Made by a program: the position numbers and the translations under genes
Shown here: one piece after another, positions 8,615 through 26,846 of the stretch
How positions within the stretch are numbered: position 1 is the stretch's first letter
How the letters are laid out: every line of letters begins with the position of its first letter
Notes under the pieces: generated by a model
Told to the model about the DNA's origin: nothing
The model's database searches: none
What the model saw: only the letters and a program-made list of their open reading frames with translations
From: Dechloromonas sp. HYN0024
GTDB lineage: Bacteria; Pseudomonadota; Gammaproteobacteria; Burkholderiales; Rhodocyclaceae
Assembly (NCBI RefSeq): GCF_003441615.1
Contig: NZ_CP031842.1
Coordinates: forward strand, 2,426,001-2,490,000
Length of the DNA stretch: 64,000 nucleotides
Direction: 5' to 3'

Positions 8615-9130
8615 ATGACTACGTTTGCTCGCTCGCTACTCGTAGCATTCTTGCTACTCGTGTCAGTTCCCGCTCGAGCAATTGAGGCCGAAGAGGCTGA
8701 GGCAGCCGTGCAAAAGGAAGAACTGAGTAACCTTGGTACTTTGGGCAAAGGAATCGCTCTTGGATTGGAAAGCAGCGGAAAGCTCGTTTCCCGGCGCAAG
8801 CAGCCTAATCGCCACGTCGAGAGTTCAAGGGATGAGGTATCAACCTACTCTTTTCTTGGCGTGCGCACGGAGTGGTTGCGGCCGGGGCCAATTCCCGAAA
8901 AGGTTCTCCTATATTCCGTTGAAATCCAAGGGAGAAGGCATCCCGTTTCTGGCCGCCTAGCTGTTGGGTCTGCCACAACAAAACGAATTGCCAGTCGCTA
9001 TGGGGAACCCTCAACACGTACTGGCTCAACAATGGTCTATTTCGCTCCTGACCATGTTCAAGATACAAGAATCACCTTTCGTTTTAGCGACGGGGTGCTT
9101 GAGGCCATACGATGGGACTTTTTAGACTAG
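8615..9130 (+). CDS. Exported protein of unknown function
   Basis: A 171-aa protein with a signal peptide (ARSLLVAFLLLVSVPARA, cleavage likely after ARA). The C-terminal half contains LAVGSATTKRIASRYGEPS and then TMVYFAPD, a layout like small BamE/SmpA-type folds, where a 'G...V...YGEP' turn precedes beta strands. No lipobox is present. The resemblance is weak and the function is unknown. It lies downstream of another exported orphan and faces the end of the nir operon. Confidence 0.6.
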   Translation: MTTFARSLLVAFLLLVSVPARAIEAEEAEAAVQKEELSNLGTLGKGIALGLESSGKLVSRRKQPNRHVESSRDEVSTYSFLGVRTEWLRPGPIPEKVLLYSVEIQGRRHPVSGRLAVGSATTKRIASRYGEPSTRTGSTMVYFAPDHVQDTRITFRFSDGVLEAIRWDFLD

Positions 9131-9313
9131 TCCATTGTCATGATTGCCCAGCCCATCGTTCCAGGGTGCCTGCGCGAAAAGCCGTGCAGTCCGGTGAATT
9201 CAAACGCTCCTGAGTGACAGCTTTCCAAATCCGGCTACGGCAGCAAAGGGCACGGTGCCGACGAATAGCCGAATTCTATTTCCGCGGCTTTTTATCCGGT
9301 TGACCATGACAAC

Positions 9314-17163: not shown

Positions 17164-17248
17164 GCCCCGGTGGCGGAATCGGTAGACGCAGCGGATTCAA
17201 AATCCGCCGCCGAAAGGTGTGCCGGTTCGAGTCCGGCCCGGGGCACCA
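17164..17248 (+). tRNA. tRNA-Leu (CAA anticodon)
   Basis: An 85-base type II tRNA. The acceptor stem GCCCCGG pairs with CCGGGGC, and the anticodon stem GCGGA/TCCGC encloses loop TTCAAAA with anticodon CAA at 17198-17200. A long variable arm, a GGTTCGAGTCC T-arm and an encoded CCA end are visible. The 3' end is the likely integration target of the following island. Confidence 0.95.
17226..17248 (+). other. Left attachment site (attL) in the tRNA-Leu 3' end
   Basis: The last 23 bases of the tRNA (T-arm half through CCA) are repeated imperfectly at 36044-36065 and lie 165 bases upstream of a P4-type integrase gene. The core is inferred from this similarity only. Confidence 0.5.
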
Positions 17249-17283
17249 AGGAGATGTTTCAAGTAATCTCAGCAGGGCCAAAG

Positions 17284-17307
17284 AACCCGCCTAAGTGCGG
17301 GTTTTTT
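17284..17307 (+). terminator. Rho-independent terminator after tRNA-Leu
   Basis: AACCCGC / GCGGGTT with a 6-base loop is followed by a T run, 36 bases after the tRNA. Confidence 0.85.
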
Positions 17308-17412
17308 ATTGGCTTTTTGCATCACGATGTGTAACATCGTCTCAGAACATCCCACCTCCAGTGTGTATAACAGTGCGAGTAACATGGGGTAGCTAGACAA
17401 GGGTTACACACG

Positions 17413-18627
17413 ATGCCGCTAACCGACACAAAAATCCGCAATCTCAAACCGAGCGACAGGCCACAATCTGTAGCTGACGAACGCGGACTTTCTATCCTTA
17501 TTCAACCAAATGGCAGCAAATGGTGGCGCCTACGCTATCGGTTTGAAGGGGTGGCAAAAATGCTGTCTCTTGGCGTCTATCCTGACGTAAGCCTCAAGGA
17601 AGCCCGTGAGCGCCGCGAGGCTGCGCGCAAAATGCTGGCTGATGGCATAGACCCAAGCGCGAACAGGAAGGCCACCAAGGCTGCCCGTGAAGAGCTGGCG
17701 ACAAACAGCTTCGAGGTAATCTGTCGAGAATGGCTGGAAAATAAGCGCAGCAACATTGAAGAAGCACAGTACAAAAAGGCTTTAGCCCGCTTGGCGAAAG
17801 ATGTTTTCCCCTGGATGGGCAGCCGACCAATCGCCGAAATCAGCGCACCAGAAATCCTCACAGTGCTGCGCCGTATTGATGCCAGGGGAGCTCGTTACTC
17901 CGCACACAAGGTCAAAAGCGAGATAAGCCAATGTTTTCGCTACGCCATCGCCACAGGCCGCGCCGAGCGTGACCCATGCCCAGATTTGCGCGGAGCCATT
18001 CCTGCCCCCAAAGCCGAAAATCTTCCTGCAATCACAGACCCGAAACTGGTCGGCGAATTGCTGCGTGCCATCGACGGCTTCAAGGGTACATTCGTTGTCA
18101 AATGCGCTCTAGAGATTGCCCCAAGGCTATTTGTCCGGCCCGGTGAACTGCGCAAAGCAGAGTGGGAGAAATTCGACCTCGACAAAGCCGAATGGCGCTA
18201 CTTCATCAACAAGACCAAGACCGAACACCTTGTGCCACTGGCAGGTCAAGTCCTGGCCACCCTTCGCGAGCTGCATGCCCTGACAGGGCACGGGCGCTAC
18301 GTCTTCCCCGGCCGCGACCCTCAGCGCCCTATGAGTGATGCAGCCATCAATGCAGCACTGCGCAGGCTGGGGTACGACACAAAGACTGAAATCACTGGGC
18401 ACGGCTTCAGGGCAATGGCAAGAACGATTCTGCATGAGGAACTACAGGTAAAGCCGGAAGTGATCGAGCACCAGCTTGCCCACCAAGTGGCAGACGCACT
18501 GGGCACCGCCTACAACCGCACCAAATTTCTAAAGGAACGCAAAGCCATGATGCAGCTGTGGGCTGATTATCTCGACAAGCTAAAAACGGGGGCAGATGTT
18601 GTCCCCCTACATAGCAACGTGGCTTAG
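17413..18627 (+). CDS. int: Tyrosine-type integrase, P4/DUF4102 family
   Basis: A 404-aa site-specific recombinase. The N-terminal DUF4102 domain (LTDTKIRNLKPSDRPQSVAD; MLSLGVYPDVSLKEARERR) is typical of integrases that use tRNA genes. The catalytic set can be read as Arg in FVRPGELRKAEW, His-x-x-Arg in GHGFRAMAR, His in EHQLAH and the Tyr nucleophile in GTAYNRTKF. The frame is intact. It lies next to tRNA-Leu reading away from it, so it should mediate integration and excision of the island. It is not an integron integrase. Confidence 0.93.
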   Translation: MPLTDTKIRNLKPSDRPQSVADERGLSILIQPNGSKWWRLRYRFEGVAKMLSLGVYPDVSLKEARERREAARKMLADGIDPSANRKATKAAREELATNSFEVICREWLENKRSNIEEAQYKKALARLAKDVFPWMGSRPIAEISAPEILTVLRRIDARGARYSAHKVKSEISQCFRYAIATGRAERDPCPDLRGAIPAPKAENLPAITDPKLVGELLRAIDGFKGTFVVKCALEIAPRLFVRPGELRKAEWEKFDLDKAEWRYFINKTKTEHLVPLAGQVLATLRELHALTGHGRYVFPGRDPQRPMSDAAINAALRRLGYDTKTEITGHGFRAMARTILHEELQVKPEVIEHQLAHQVADALGTAYNRTKFLKERKAMMQLWADYLDKLKTGADVVPLHSNVA

Positions 18628-21431: not shown

Positions 21432-21493
21432 TCCCCCCGGAATTGAGTAGCACGTGACTTTGGAGTCCAATCCCACCATCAAGGAGATTGGAC

Positions 21494-21757
21494 ATGAAGA
21501 AGCGATTCACTGAAGAACAGATCATTGGTTTTCTGCGTGAAGCAGAGGCAGGAATGCCTATTGCGAAGCTTTGCCGCAAACACGCCTTCTCGGAAGCCAG
21601 CTACTACCTCTGGCGCAGCAAGTTTGGCGGGATGAGCGTCTCAGATGCCAAGCGCCTGAAGGAACTGGAGCTGGAGAATTCCCGGCTCAAGCGCTTACTT
21701 GCGGAATCTCTGCTGGAGAACGAGATTGCGAAAGAGGCCCTGCGAAAAAAGTGGTGA
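21494..21757 (+). CDS. IS3-family transposase OrfA
   Basis: An 87-aa helix-turn-helix/leucine-zipper protein ([38 protein letters not shown]). The ATG at 21494 has an AAGGAG ribosome site. The slippery heptamer AAAAAAG at 21745-21751, just before the stop, should allow -1 frameshifting into orfB. Confidence 0.92.
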   Translation: MKKRFTEEQIIGFLREAEAGMPIAKLCRKHAFSEASYYLWRSKFGGMSVSDAKRLKELELENSRLKRLLAESLLENEIAKEALRKKW

Positions 21758-22614
21758 GCGCACCGTCACGACGTGATCTGGTGCGCTTCCTGATCGACAA
21801 GGGACTCAGCGAGCGGAAATCACTCCGTTTCGTTGGCATGAGCCCGAGCGCTTTCCGGTACCGGCCGGTGATGGATCGCAATACCGCCTTGAAAGAAAGG
21901 ATCATCACGCTCGCTCAGCGCCACCGGCGCTACGGGGCTGGGATGATCTATCTGAAGCTGCGTCAGGCAGGAGAGGTCGTGAATCACAAGCGGGTGGATC
22001 GGCTCTATGCCGAGGCAGGTCTGCAAGTGAGAAGGCGCAAGCGGAAGAAAATCCCGGCGGCCGACCGGCATCCCTTAGAACGCCCCTTGGCGGCCAACCA
22101 GGTCTGGTCGATGGATTTCGTGTTCGATCGGACAGCAGAAGGACGTGTCATCAAGAATCTCACCGTGGTCGATGACGCGACTCATGAAGCTGTGGCCATT
22201 GTTCCTGAACGAGCACTGGGCGGTCTGCAACTAACCCGTGTTCTCGACCAGTTGGCAAAGACGAGGGGACTCCCCAAGGCGATCCGAACCGATAACGGCA
22301 AGGAGTTCTGCAGCCGGGCCATGCTGACCTGGGCGCATGCCCGTGGTGTTCAGTTGTTCCTCATCGAGCCAGGCAAACCTAACCAGAACGCCTATATCGA
22401 ATCGTTCAACGGACGTTTCCGCGATGAATGTCTGAATGAACACTGGTTCACCAGCATGCGCCACGCCCAAGTCATCATCGAAGCTTGGCGGCGGGAATAT
22501 AACGAGGAGCGGCCCAAGAAATCCCTTGGCGGAATGACCCCTGCTGCTTATGCCAGATCACTTGCCCAGAAATCGGTTAAATTAACCCCGGACTCTAAAG
22601 CCTACTGCTACTGA
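21751..22614 (+). CDS. IS3-family transposase OrfB (integrase core)
   Basis: About 287 aa with an rve/DDE core: Asp in VWSMDFVFD, Asp in AIRTDNGKEF and Glu in [19 protein letters not shown]. It is in the -1 frame relative to orfA and is likely made as an OrfAB fusion by slippage at AAAAAAG. It is intact. Confidence 0.92.
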   Translation: MVSAPSRRDLVRFLIDKGLSERKSLRFVGMSPSAFRYRPVMDRNTALKERIITLAQRHRRYGAGMIYLKLRQAGEVVNHKRVDRLYAEAGLQVRRRKRKKIPAADRHPLERPLAANQVWSMDFVFDRTAEGRVIKNLTVVDDATHEAVAIVPERALGGLQLTRVLDQLAKTRGLPKAIRTDNGKEFCSRAMLTWAHARGVQLFLIEPGKPNQNAYIESFNGRFRDECLNEHWFTSMRHAQVIIEAWRREYNEERPKKSLGGMTPAAYARSLAQKSVKLTPDSKAYCY

Positions 22615-22917: not shown

Positions 22918-23338
22918 ACTCAGGCCTAGTTATCCCTACCATTACAGGCCAAACAACGCTGAAAATTCTGTTGTTCCACCGAAAGCCACATTGCACAGCG
23001 AGGACTATCTGTACGTTAAAGGTCCGCTTCCCAAAAGGAAGACCGACTGCTTTGGGCACTGACGGGGCAGCCCAGTTTTATGACAGCAGCCGTCGTCACG
23101 AATTCCATCAACTTGCCCACCTCATCCGGCTCAATTCGGCCACAAACGGACACTTGGTTACCGCGCCCCAAAGCAGACATTGCCCTGGGGCAGTTGTCCG
23201 GCATATTGATGTTGTTATACTGACAGCCAATATACCAAGTGACTGAAAGCAATGTGCTTGGTGCGACATATCCGGCTTCAGCAATATCAATTGTTATACG
23301 GACCCATGCGTCCGTATAAACACTGTTAGACAACGTCA
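22918..23338. other. Region without a clear gene at the start of the cassette array
   Basis: About 420 bases. A 114-codon leftward frame (23016-23360) exists but has no clear start or family. Near the right end is a perfect 10-bp hairpin (23294-23319) followed by GTTAGAC at 23325-23331, which looks like the 3' box of an attC site whose 5' box is not recognisable. Confidence 0.45.
23294..23331 (+). repeat. Hairpin plus attC-type R' box (partial attC)
   Basis: TTATACGGAC and GTCCGTATAA form a perfect stem with a 6-base loop. Five bases later is GTTAGAC, a match to the attC R' consensus GTTRRRY. The first cassette gene starts 8 bases downstream, the usual spacing. Confidence 0.5.
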
Positions 23339-23626
23339 GTGAAACCATCTCGCACCCCACTAGAAGCCTCCGCAGGCAAACTGATTTCCGCTGTTCAGCG
23401 TGAGTGGCATGCTGAGGCAGGAGAACCCTCTGCCGCTGAAAGCGAAGAGGTTATGCATTCCTGCCATGGGTTGCTTCAAGCTGCGAAAGACGGCTCTCTG
23501 TCTGACATTCTTGGCTCAAAAACTGTCGCCCAGTTTCTCGGTACCCACTGGGTGGCAGCACACCCAAATGTTGGCGCCGCAATCAGCGAGTTTGAGGCTG
23601 TCGCACAAGGGCAGGCCAGTGTCTAA
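23339..23626 (+). CDS. Cassette gene A, unknown protein
   Basis: A 95-aa soluble protein with GTG start 8 bases after an attC-type R' box. Its TAA stop lies inside the 5' box (GTCTAAC) of the next attC, as is typical of integron cassettes. The sequence (LEASAGKLISAVQREWHAE; SDILGSKTVAQFLGTHWVAA) is helical and matches no family known to me. It has no signal or membrane segment. Confidence 0.6.
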   Translation: MKPSRTPLEASAGKLISAVQREWHAEAGEPSAAESEEVMHSCHGLLQAAKDGSLSDILGSKTVAQFLGTHWVAAHPNVGAAISEFEAVAQGQASV

Positions 23627-23716
23627 CATTACCGTCAAAGCCGCTCCGGCCTTCGGCCTCCGCTGGACGCTGCGCGATAAAGCGCAGCGCAGCGCCCTTT
23701 ACCTACAACGTTAGAC
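23621..23716 (+). repeat. attC recombination site 1
   Basis: R'' box GTCTAAC at 23621-23627 and R' box GTTAGAC at 23710-23716 are exact complements, 96 bases end to end. The interior is imperfectly self-complementary (GCCGCTCCGGCCTTCGGCC; CTGCGCGATAAAGCGCAG). The 3' flank ACCTACAAC is shared with other sites of the array. Confidence 0.85.
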
Positions 23717-23720
23717 CGTA

Positions 23721-24059
23721 ATGAAGCTCTGGCACCTTATTTACCGAAGCACATTCGATTGCCCAAGATGTGATGGCACTGTTGAATATGGGCCAGGCAC
23801 TGGCATTAAAGAGTATTTCGCTGATGCTTACTTGGTTCTGGCTGACCAGTTTGTTTGGGTGGCCTTGGGTGCCCTAATTGGAGGGCTTACATTTTGGTTC
23901 TTTGGTGAAATCGTAGGCTTGGCGGTATCCACCGCAATTTGGCTAGCCATCACCCGCTATTTTGCAAAGTTTCAATGCCGGAAATGTGGCGCAGTTTTCA
24001 CTTGTGCTGAGTTGTTGCGGCTTTCCAAGGAGCGTAACAGCGATGAAAAACCTGTCTAA
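23721..24059 (+). CDS. Cassette gene B, small membrane protein with paired CXXC
   Basis: A 112-aa protein starting 5 bases after attC site 1. It has CPRC near residue 15 and CRKC near residue 86, flanking two membrane-spanning stretches (FVWVALGALIGGLTFWFF and VGLAVSTAIWLAI). The paired CXXC suggests a zinc ribbon closed by both ends. The stop TAA lies inside the next attC 5' box. Family unknown. Confidence 0.65.
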   Translation: MKLWHLIYRSTFDCPRCDGTVEYGPGTGIKEYFADAYLVLADQFVWVALGALIGGLTFWFFGEIVGLAVSTAIWLAITRYFAKFQCRKCGAVFTCAELLRLSKERNSDEKPV

Positions 24060-24125
24060 CATTCCGCTCCAGCCGACAGTAAAAAAGCTACGCTTTTTGC
24101 CGTCGGCTGAGCTAGCACGTTAGGC
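24054..24125 (+). repeat. attC recombination site 2
   Basis: GTCTAAC (24054-24060) and GTTAGGC (24119-24125) are 72 bases end to end. The interior is a long near-perfect stem: AGCCGACAG plus AAAAAAGC, pairing with GCTTTTT plus CCGTCGGCT. Confidence 0.85.
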
Positions 24126-24132
24126 ATTCAGA

Positions 24133-24441
24133 TTGGCCTCACCATTTACACTGTCGGTCCTAGCGATCTGCGCCATCGCATTGGCGAACGTCGTTGTGTC
24201 GGTTCAGGTCATCAAATGCCCAATGCTTTCAGCATTCCAAAAGGCGGCGCAATGCTCTATTGTTTGGCTTGCCCCAATCATCGGTGCCGTAGGCATTTGG
24301 GCCTTTCTCCGTAGCCAATACAACTGGAACAAATTCGATACGCGAGCGTACCCGGAGCATTCGGAAAAAATGGTTCTTTTAGAGTTGGACAAGTCTGAGC
24401 ATGTCGGTTCAAACCACTCTGGTGCGCCCCATGGTGACTGA
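24133..24441 (+). CDS. Cassette gene C, small membrane protein
   Basis: A 102-aa protein with a TTG start 8 bases after attC site 2. Two membrane segments are visible (LSVLAICAIALANVVVSV and SIVWLAPIIGAVGIWAFL), followed by a polar tail rich in acidic residues. No known domain. The stop is 9 bases before the next attC 5' box. Confidence 0.55.
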   Translation: MASPFTLSVLAICAIALANVVVSVQVIKCPMLSAFQKAAQCSIVWLAPIIGAVGIWAFLRSQYNWNKFDTRAYPEHSEKMVLLELDKSEHVGSNHSGAPHGD

Positions 24442-24450
24442 CATGCCTAT

Positions 24451-24531
24451 GCCTAACATTCCTGTCAAGGCGCGGCCTTGGGGCGCTGGGACGTCCCGCA
24501 AGCGGGCCACCTCTTACCTACAAAGTTAGGC
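24451..24531 (+). repeat. attC recombination site 3
   Basis: GCCTAAC (24451-24457) and GTTAGGC (24525-24531) are exact complements, 81 bases apart end to end. The L''-like GTCAAGGCGC and a 3' flank ACCTACAA match sites 1 and 4. Confidence 0.87.
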
Positions 24532-24537
24532 TCTATT

Positions 24538-24936
24538 GTGAAATTCCTAGCGCTCGTTTCCGCTCTGATCTTTCTACCGATTTCTGCACATTCTGAAATC
24601 ACCTTCGCGCCAGGAGCTATCAATCGCGTTCCGGTCGGTAAAGAAAAAACGCGAGGCAACACGATTCGGACCGATGCTGTTTGCACAAAGCGAGGTGGCG
24701 AGTGGTTCGCAGGTAGCGGCTATGCATTCTGCGTTTTGCCATACCCCGATGCGGGCAAACTTTGCCGCAACTCCAAAGATTGCATTGGTCACTGCACCAT
24801 GCCTCTAAGCGAGGAGACCCTTGATGGAAAGCCGTTGCCAAAAGGGAAAGGCATCTGCCAACTTGACGATAGCGTTGAAGACTGTGGGCGCCCACACTTT
24901 GAAAACGGCAAAGTTATATTTTTCAACTGCGACTAA
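24538..24936 (+). CDS. Cassette gene D, exported cysteine-rich protein
   Basis: A 132-aa protein with a GTG start 6 bases after attC site 3. The signal peptide (FLALVSALIFLPISAHS) is followed by a mature domain with nine cysteines (for example FCVLPYPDAGKLCRNSKDC, GHCTMPLS and VEDCGRPHF), likely disulfide-bonded in the periplasm. An in-frame start further upstream would lie inside the attC and is rejected. The stop directly precedes the next attC. Function unknown. Confidence 0.7.
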   Translation: MKFLALVSALIFLPISAHSEITFAPGAINRVPVGKEKTRGNTIRTDAVCTKRGGEWFAGSGYAFCVLPYPDAGKLCRNSKDCIGHCTMPLSEETLDGKPLPKGKGICQLDDSVEDCGRPHFENGKVIFFNCD

Positions 24937-25023
24937 GCCTAGCATCCCGGTCGAGGCGCGGCTTCGCCGCTGGGACGCTCAGCCGATAAGCAGGCTCCGC
25001 GCCCCTCACCTACAACGTTCCTG
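24937..25023 (+). repeat. Degenerate attC site 4
   Basis: A 5' box GCCTAGC at 24937-24943, L''-like GTCGAGGCGC and the 3' flank ACCTACAAC resemble site 3, but the R' box reads GTTCCTG instead of GTTRRRY. This site is probably at the decayed or truncated end of the array. Confidence 0.65.
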
Positions 25024-25394
25024 AGCGTCCGCTTTGAAAACTCGGCAACGGCAGCAATGGGCACAAAGCACTCAGTGACGACTGGCTGCTTCCAGGAACC
25101 GGAATTTCACTGACTGTTTGCGGTTTGCGGGGGGATGGAAGGGTTCAGAGTGGAATCGGTGGCCGACTTTGGAATGGAATCACTGGCAGGGTTTTCTATG
25201 GAATCGGTGCCCGGTTTCAGGTGGAATGTCCACATAGATCACTTTGCCCTAAAGCGGACAGTTAGTTCCTTAACAGGTATGCTATTAGCGTTTTTGGCTC
25301 GTCCACTGTTGTAAAGTCGAGCCAGCCCCATTCTGTTCCACCAAACAGATAACACTTATAGGCAAGCTTGGGCATGGTGCCAACTGGAGCGACA
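25024..25394. other. Gene-free region with IS21-like end repeats
   Basis: No gene is seen. Three related 19-base units (TGGAATCGGTGGCCGACTT and variants) occur at 25151, 25175 and 25199, spaced 24 bases apart, with a partial fourth at 25222. Such spaced repeats are typical of IS21-family termini, so this may be the remnant of a lost element. No IS21 transposase gene is present. Confidence 0.45.
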
Positions 25395-26846
25395 ATGAAA
25401 CCGGAAATTCAACTCGATTCGCGCAAACTTTGGGGAAATGAAGCTGCCGATGATGAAAGCGCAGAGCGCCTGAACTCGTACTTCGTAATGCAACCTGTGT
25501 TTGAGAGTTTCTTTGATCCTAGCGAGCGCTTTTTAGTGGCTCGTGCGCGGAAAGGCCTCGGGAAATCAGCACTTCTAAGGGAATGTGCATTCCGTGCCGA
25601 GTTGGATGAATCAAATCTAGTTATATCAATCAAGGGGGGCGACCTAGTTGCGCAAAAAAAAGTCGAGACTCTGTCTCCTATAGAACATATTCACGACTGG
25701 CAACAGCGTATTTGCGCTGTTATCAATCGAGCCCTAGGCAGCCAAATCGGTGTTGCCTTTTCCGACGACAAAATGGCCCTCGTAGAAGCAGCCGAACTAG
25801 CTGGCCTGAAGAATCGGAATCTATTTGGCGGCCTATTCGAACGAGCAAAGGGAAAGCTTGGACTACAATCCACACAGATAGCAGACAATAAGGCGCTGCT
25901 AGGTCGCGTAATAGGAAGCGAAGAAAAGACAGTTTGGCTAATCCTTGATGATATTGATGCGACATTTGAAGGTGGAAGAGACGAAATCCGCCGACTTTCC
26001 ACTTTTTTTTCTGCCTGTCGCGAACTTGCGGCCAATTTCAAGGGCGTAGTCATCCGCGCGAGCATTCGATCAGATGTCTGGACAACAATCGAACGCACCG
26101 ACGAGGCACTCGACAAGGCTGATCAATATGTCCGGGACATTCGATGGAGTCGCGCTGAAACAAAGAAAATTCTAGCAGAGCGAGTCTCCAGCTATTTACG
26201 CCTAGAAAAGGGATTCTCAGATTCCGACGTTGCTAAACTTACCGATACCAAACTATGCATGCTCGTGTTCAAGAACACATTCCCTGACCAGATTCATGTT
26301 TGGTCTGTTGGGCGTCCTCGGTGGGCAGCCCAATTGGGACGAATGGCAGGCGCAGTAGCAGTTCGGACGAAAAGTAACAAGATAACAGATGGACACATCA
26401 GAGAAATCCTATTCGATTACGGCAAATATCGCTTAAACGATATTGCCCGAGAACACAAGCTTCAGTGTAGTCAGATCGAATTGATTGCAAATTCCTTCTC
26501 CAAAGGACGCGCTGCCCTGACCACGAATGAATTGCTAACACACATCCGAACCAAGGTTATCCCTAACATGCAAATCAGCATAGAAGGGCGCGATAAGCCT
26601 TCAGATCTTGAGATCGCTCGCTTCCTTTTCAAAATTGGATTCATAGTCGGTCACCAACTGTCCGCAACGGCAACGGCTCAGGAGTACTTTGCCTTTGATC
26701 AGAAGCCGGATCTCCTCGTAAATGAAGCCAACCTAGATGATGAGCTCATTTGGCGCATTCAGGCCGCGTACCACAGTGTGCTTAGGCTTCGTAACGATTT
26801 AGGCGCGGTTTTGGCCACTAGCGAGGCGTTGCCCCAAGTATCTTAA
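25395..26846 (+). CDS. P-loop ATPase, Sll1717-like
   Basis: A 483-aa protein. A modified Walker A (ARKGLGKSALL, the first glycine replaced by Ala) lies near residue 57, and Walker B (VWLILDDIDA) near residue 185. The DDID and a later RASIRSDVW sensor-like segment fit STAND/AAA-type ATPases of the Sll1717 group, often found in mobile islands. A helical C-terminal half has no recognised effector. The ATG at 25395 is chosen for its GGAG site; ATGs lie 7 and 9 codons upstream. It precedes a HEPN-like cassette gene in the same orientation. A defence role is speculative. Confidence 0.72.
   Translation: MKPEIQLDSRKLWGNEAADDESAERLNSYFVMQPVFESFFDPSERFLVARARKGLGKSALLRECAFRAELDESNLVISIKGGDLVAQKKVETLSPIEHIHDWQQRICAVINRALGSQIGVAFSDDKMALVEAAELAGLKNRNLFGGLFERAKGKLGLQSTQIADNKALLGRVIGSEEKTVWLILDDIDATFEGGRDEIRRLSTFFSACRELAANFKGVVIRASIRSDVWTTIERTDEALDKADQYVRDIRWSRAETKKILAERVSSYLRLEKGFSDSDVAKLTDTKLCMLVFKNTFPDQIHVWSVGRPRWAAQLGRMAGAVAVRTKSNKITDGHIREILFDYGKYRLNDIAREHKLQCSQIELIANSFSKGRAALTTNELLTHIRTKVIPNMQISIEGRDKPSDLEIARFLFKIGFIVGHQLSATATAQEYFAFDQKPDLLVNEANLDDELIWRIQAAYHSVLRLRNDLGAVLATSEALPQVS

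Follow-up and report, generated by a model that had tools for sequence, protein, structure and literature searches.

The region described here, in the chromosome of Dechloromonas sp. HYN0024, is probably an integron without an integrase, made up of an attI platform, four cassettes in the same orientation and a recurrent 3' end, and is likely to be one member of a dispersed family of such platforms. It lies within a 64-kb stretch of DNA (the window), to which the coordinates refer; the host genome is a single contig of 3,258,300 bases with a completeness of 100. The features concerned are listed below, all on the + strand.

8615..9253 (+): second locus, with ORF 8615-9130, a lone degenerate attC site at 9146-9209 and a 3' end element at 9208-9253
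17164..18627 (+): carrying island, with tRNA-Leu (17164-17248) and a presumed P4-type integrase (17413-18627)
23019..23059 (+): copy with a weaker match (nhmmer E 2e-4) to the 3' end element, lying 5' of the leader
23135..23198 (+): leader of about 60 bp, adjoining the attI platform; 13 further platforms have a similar one
23194..23221 (+): candidate cassette promoter TTGTCC-16-TATACT at the leader/attI join; consensus match only
23199..23327 (+): attI platform, 93% to the consensus query; its last three bases are the crossover triplet GTT (23325-23327)
23326..23710 (+): cassette 1, ORF 23339-23626 (95 aa, GTG start, no family match), attC 23621-23716
23711..24119 (+): cassette 2, ORF 23721-24059 (112 aa), attC 24054-24125
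24120..24525 (+): cassette 3, ORF 24133-24441 (102 aa, TTG start), attC 24451-24531
24526..25017 (+): cassette 4, ORF 24538-24936 (132 aa, GTG start, no family match), terminal attC 24937-25026
25018..25065 (+): 3' end element, TTCCTGAGCGTCCGCTTT...GGGCAC, with which the final attC is fused; nhmmer E 3e-14

The cassette array and its setting

A preliminary description of this DNA had proposed an array of attC sites lacking an integrase, with three full sites, one degenerate site (24937-25023) and all cassettes pointing the same way. This was confirmed with an independent covariance model, R1, trained on 19 attC sites from 11 loci that had been fetched for intI, of which one came from the window's genus and none from the HYN0024 genome; the 19 sites were picked by hand among attC candidates, with others, such as those of L022, L052 and L056, being excluded. 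All four sites were recognised by this model of other genomes' sites, each on the + strand and above the genome noise, with scores of 45.6 bits (23621-23716), 42.1 bits (24054-24125), 40.4 bits (24451-24531) and 31.8 bits (24937-25026). Elsewhere in the chromosome one extra site was found, at 9146-9209 (25.9 bits, genome-wide E 0.0065), followed only by noise, the next-best matches in the 3.26 Mb scoring 16.0 and 15.7 bits (E 2.5 and 3.1). As only the four sites and 9146-9209 stand out genome-wide, the objection that such sites might be equally numerous elsewhere does not hold. Complementary R''/R' boxes (RYYYAAC...GTTRRRY) and an L''/L' stem are present in sites 1-3. Site 4 has GCCTAGC as its R'' and is degenerate because the recurrent 3' end element replaces its R' box. 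The flank ACCTACAA, said to be common to sites 1, 3 and 4, is indeed there. A regex-plus-fold search of the 64-kb window returned four R''/R' candidates on each strand, three of them being the reported sites, and an Rfam scan at gathering scores matched tRNA alone. Across the genus, attC matches at E<=0.01 were obtained in 57 of 60 genomes. The stretch 23294-23331, previously read as a partial attC site, was rejected as such, being instead the 3' end of the attI platform.

The reading frames fit the earlier account, in that ORFs 1 and 2 stop within R'' (the 5' box) and the predicted starts are GTG, ATG, TTG and GTG. Matches of the cassette 2 protein to zinc ribbons were all sub-threshold, and one relative was listed for it at E<=0.001. 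For cassette 3, 32 relatives were listed at the same threshold, mostly unnamed or hypothetical, one of them the host genome's own shorter copy of the protein; relatives at 65% aa were also seen at two places in L038, an intI-bearing array of the same genus. Plasmid records gave a single 73-base match to the array, lying inside attC 4. Directly after the array, at 25136-25213, stand three imperfect tandem copies of about 24 bp of the TGGAATCGGTGGCCG type.

The absence of an integron integrase likewise held for the whole genome, in which nothing exceeded the TIGR02249 cut-off; seven weaker matches were found (best 72 bits vs a cut-off of 265), and such weaker matches also occurred in 14 of 14 control genomes. 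With at least two attC sites and no intI over cut-off in the genome, the region is a CALIN in the sense of the preliminary description, and the part of that reading which concerns an attC array without integrase is upheld; a mere cluster of attC sites it is not, since it has an attI platform and a recurrent 3' end.

The array sits behind the tRNA-Leu, between an element that we take to be IS3-like (21488-22614) and an AAA-like gene (25395-26846). The island has a tRNA-adjacent integrase and a primase, both presumably P4-type. The suggested carriage by an excisable element is not borne out: the 64-kb window yielded no further copy of the 3' end of tRNA-Leu, and attC matches at E<=0.1 accompanied only one (L131) of 80 loci with relatives of the integrase. 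As attC sites are found in so few of these loci, the island looks like an incidental carrier of the array. L131 also carries a 3' end, together with part of a left element.

Three further observations concern other loci of the host genome. The second locus (8615-9253) adjoins genes for a NirDL-like regulator and cytochrome d1, and its left side is not an attI platform. On the - strand, at 21339-21209, a left element of a second kind (type II) survives as a remnant directly upstream of an M48 peptidase/Sel1 gene (21146-18792). In L004 (1132-1746; G000:C1:1086157-1086768), a 204-aa minimal tyrosine recombinase is followed by a type II left element.

The attI platform and the 3' end in related genomes

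A match to the leader and platform was obtained with nhmmer at 23135-23329, and the sequence 23137-23330 recurs 5' of other such arrays. The platform was surveyed with a query in which platform and 3' end were joined; platform copies stop at ...AACACTGTT, and copies of the 3' end begin at GTT. Matches were found in 27 of 60 genus genomes, one of these (G321) by the 3' end alone, and in 34 of 297 family genomes, covering 22 of 68 genera at 69-96% identity to the query, with some of the family-wide matches spanning just 27-52 bases. An empty junction between attI and 3' end was seen in none of the 60 genus or 297 family genomes, matches never crossing by more than 4 bases; the two halves were therefore nowhere observed directly joined. 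In a class-wide sample of 369 genomes, the platform was absent outside the family, the single positive genome being the window's own, and plasmid records gave no match to it.

The survey provided 53 left loci (L255-L284 and L303-L325), of which 46 were kept in a junction profile; L272, L274, L276, L278, L281, L282 and L283 were excluded, their matches either stopping short of the junction or consisting of the 3' end only. Counts of attC and intI use 52 loci (L281, 3' end only, being left out), and the upstream flank is short at contig ends, with 149 bases before the junction in L319. The 46 aligned copies define a conserved site ending at the GTT where the first cassette begins: the commonest base has a mean frequency of 0.82 over the 60 positions that precede the junction and of 0.36 from +5 onwards. 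A strict GTTRRRY box is present at the junction in 20 of the 46, and the ORF after GTT starts a median of 16.5 bases beyond it. Same-strand attC sites (E<0.01) were detected downstream of 33 of 52 platforms (15/29 and 18/23) in fetched flanks of at most about 1.5 kb. The TATACT columns of the candidate promoter are conserved at 0.85-1.0 in the 46 copies, and promoter-like matches were as numerous as expected by chance; cassette 1 may be transcribed from this candidate.

Integrases were sought with ten IntI proteins by tblastn against 165 loci (L200-L364) and the window, the positive controls being matched in 50 of 50 intI loci. A divergent intI adjoins the platform in five of 52 copies (L312, L320, L323, L324 and L325), its open frame starting some 180-330 bases 5' of the junction. 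The alignments extend over 316-326 residues in L312, L320, L323 and L325 and over 278 residues in L324, the N-terminal part being absent from its frame. Two of the five proteins were scanned, and both exceed the TIGR02249 cut-off. No intI was found at the other 47 copies, and the only further matches were weak ones in L285-L287, loci fetched for a recombinase. The five intI-bearing platforms belong to genera other than the window's, in which no intI was seen beside a platform. More generally, intI was detected at E<=1e-60 in 175 of 297 family genomes and in seven among the 12 genus genomes listed. The five related copies with a divergent intI upstream argue that the platform is a genuine attI site, which would be expected to recombine with attC under IntI.

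Other candidate lines of support for attI identity were rejected. Likeness to attI1 was not significant, as 105 of 1542 random GTT sites scored equally high, and the same was true of the genus attI sites of L038 and L039 (328 and 86 of 1542). As attI sequences differ between integron classes, sequence likeness to a known attI is not a defining property. In a terminal hairpin before GTT, compensatory changes were not in excess (their count was reached by 69 of 1000 shuffles), and the paired fraction was 0.842 vs 0.833 (sd 0.004).

On the opposite side of the array, a similar sequence of about 48 bp follows both the terminal attC and the lone attC of the host genome, and the motif CCTGAGYGNCNGCTTTNNNAA, allowing zero mismatches, occurs at exactly these two places. 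With up to one mismatch, it was found 50 times in the 60 genus genomes vs 15 times for a reversed control. At 29 new motif loci (one per genome), an attC match at E<0.01 ended at the motif in 10 and a weaker one in 2, the remaining 17 including chance matches. From 26 larger motif loci, many overlapping earlier places and two (L233 and L235) being chance matches, an attC match ended within about 10 bases of the motif in 19 of 24, 15 of them at E<0.01; the five without such a match were L229, L239, L248, L249 and L253. The nhmmer profile of the 3' end includes the window copy itself, and L239 and L253 were excluded from it. In three intI-bearing arrays of one other genus, g49 (L042, L043 and L047), the last detected attC is likewise followed by this 3' end. 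The weaker copy at 23019-23059 may mark the end of an adjacent array that has decayed.

Origin of the integrase-less platforms

When the 60 bases before attI proper were clustered by single linkage at >=75% identity, two groups of leaders were obtained: one of 14 copies, including that of the window, from four genera (g1, g43, g4 and g22), and one of six copies from three genera (g1, g44 and g21). None of 5000 shuffled leader pairs reached 75%. At 70% the groups merged into one of 23 copies, and at 80% groups of eight and six remained. Neither the group of 14 nor that of six contains an intI-bearing copy, and no pair within the leader groups has an upstream flank of >=80 bp in common (E 1e-5). 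Among the first ORFs of 46 platforms, similarity was confined to two pairs, L270-L314 and L275-L277, and the loci of the second pair also have flanks in common; these ORFs were chosen mechanically, which for the window copy (L256) yielded an overlapping frame, and cassette 1 was added by hand. Some platform cassettes have relatives in intI-bearing arrays, namely those of L306 (94% in L049 and 85-94% in L048), L316 (70% in L048) and L310 (46% in L014/L044).

A unit of 1970 bp with two cassettes (L338, genome G307) lies between two genes that, from their reading frames, we take to be of nudix and bacterioferritin type. The same intergenic region has neither platform, 3' end nor attC in G299, G281, G318 and G343, the match in G299 being continuous across the join; G298, G339 and G112 carry other inserts there, likewise without platform, 3' end or attC. 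This absence test was informative at one of three fully joined loci. Tested as a transposon or MITE, the unit type showed a weak inverted repeat and no resolved target duplication: the consensus repeat score was reached by 27 of 2000 shuffles, and one of 11 units fell below 1%. Inverted repeats were rejected as proof. A dispersed genus repeat, TTTTTTCCGGTTGACCGTG, stands beside several platforms (flanks of L328, L338, L248 and L249) and also in platform-free loci.

In the reading that we favour, loss of intI next to attI would have given rise to the integrase-less form, which would then have spread as a unit, its cassettes being loaded by IntI elsewhere or earlier through the usual attI x attC reaction; the array in the host genome would be frozen unless an integrase arrives. 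A bolder interpretation, put forward tentatively, is that units of leader, attI, cassettes and 3' end are a propagating family of dispersed, non-autonomous capture sites, filled and refilled by IntI acting in trans. Were such a propagating family real, one integrase would give a genome several cassette arrays. The platforms might instead be plain decayed integrons, each having lost intI independently with no dispersed integrase-less unit, an explanation we regard as clearly less probable than the favoured one. Five intI-bearing relatives do exist, and a degraded-integron origin has been put forward for CALINs (PMC9024848). An IS3 element is presumed upstream in the window (21488-22614), and the sequence just 5' of the platform in L309, L314, L316, L317 and L321 resembles, by eye, that of the intI-bearing L312. 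At 70% identity, the leader of the intI-bearing L324 also pairs with that of the intI-less L310, so some platforms may be simple losses. Separate decay does not, however, readily account for leaders joined to attI at the same point throughout the groups of 14 and six, a likeness that shuffling failed to produce, nor for the lack of common upstream flanks within them, and tblastn found no IntI in regions of 10-12 kb around 16 platform loci.

Spread as a transposon-like unit with inverted repeats, mobilised by the 204-aa tyrosine recombinase (the ends of its own gene being similar), appears unlikely. The recombinase gene is present in 14 of 60 genus genomes and lies near a left platform in L271 and L278, and in five of 12 such genes the upstream end is like the leader (0-2 of 300 shuffles); the other seven show no resemblance (>=10 of 300 shuffles), however, and no target duplication was seen. 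The recombinase with its partly similar ends is only a lead. It is highly improbable that IntI in trans placed the cassettes into attG-type genomic sites, even though insertion at attG has been reported in E. coli (Loot 2024, cited in PMC12444791), genomes in general are said to have many attI-like sites (PMC10127599), and the lone site at 9146-9209 has no left platform. An attG-like secondary site was rejected for the main array, the left side of which is one conserved sequence rather than scattered sites, with an adjoining intI in five genomes.

Comparison with known systems

As possible origins of arrays without an integrase, a review names off-target insertion, intI loss and rearrangement (PMC8618304). 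The family-wide set of platforms permits a direct test, since like attI sites, some beside intI and others not, can be compared at dozens of loci that differ in their cassettes. Should the form lacking the integrase propagate as a unit, a genome could gain cassette capacity with no increase in integrase genes, and CALIN counts would partly reflect dispersed capture sites rather than decay.

The sources consulted, in the portions available, cover CALINs, attG sites, delta-attI cassettes and CALIN loci of Xanthomonas (PMC12444791, PMC12901181, PMC9024848, PMC2426708, PMC10127599, PMC8618304). The literature searched, in so far as its texts were available and with subscription papers lying mostly outside it, yielded no account of attI platforms dispersed without intI. 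As far as these searches go, the parts of the array are of known kinds and the dispersed, attI-bearing form without intI is new.

Among the closest known systems are the chromosomal integrons of the Rhodocyclaceae, such as that of Dechloromonas aromatica RCB (PMC2426708), with which the array has its attC family and cassettes in common, and the same 3' end closes the intI-bearing g49 arrays; the window, however, has no intI, and its platform is not significantly like the attI of L038 or L039. An In0, with intI and no cassettes, is also an incomplete integron, of which the window array represents the opposite half, with attI and cassettes and no intI. The MITE-flanked class 1 integron reportedly described by Gillings in 2009 resembles the present case in the notion that a cassette unit is mobilised through its ends; the unit in the window, by contrast, is without clear inverted repeats, target duplication or intI. 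As with attG sites, the cassettes are inserted away from intI, but in the window this is at one conserved attI, whereas attG sites are scattered and non-classical. Like a CALIN, finally, the array has two or more attC sites and no intI nearby; it differs in retaining a conserved attI platform and a recurrent 3' end, and in being one of a family of such platforms.
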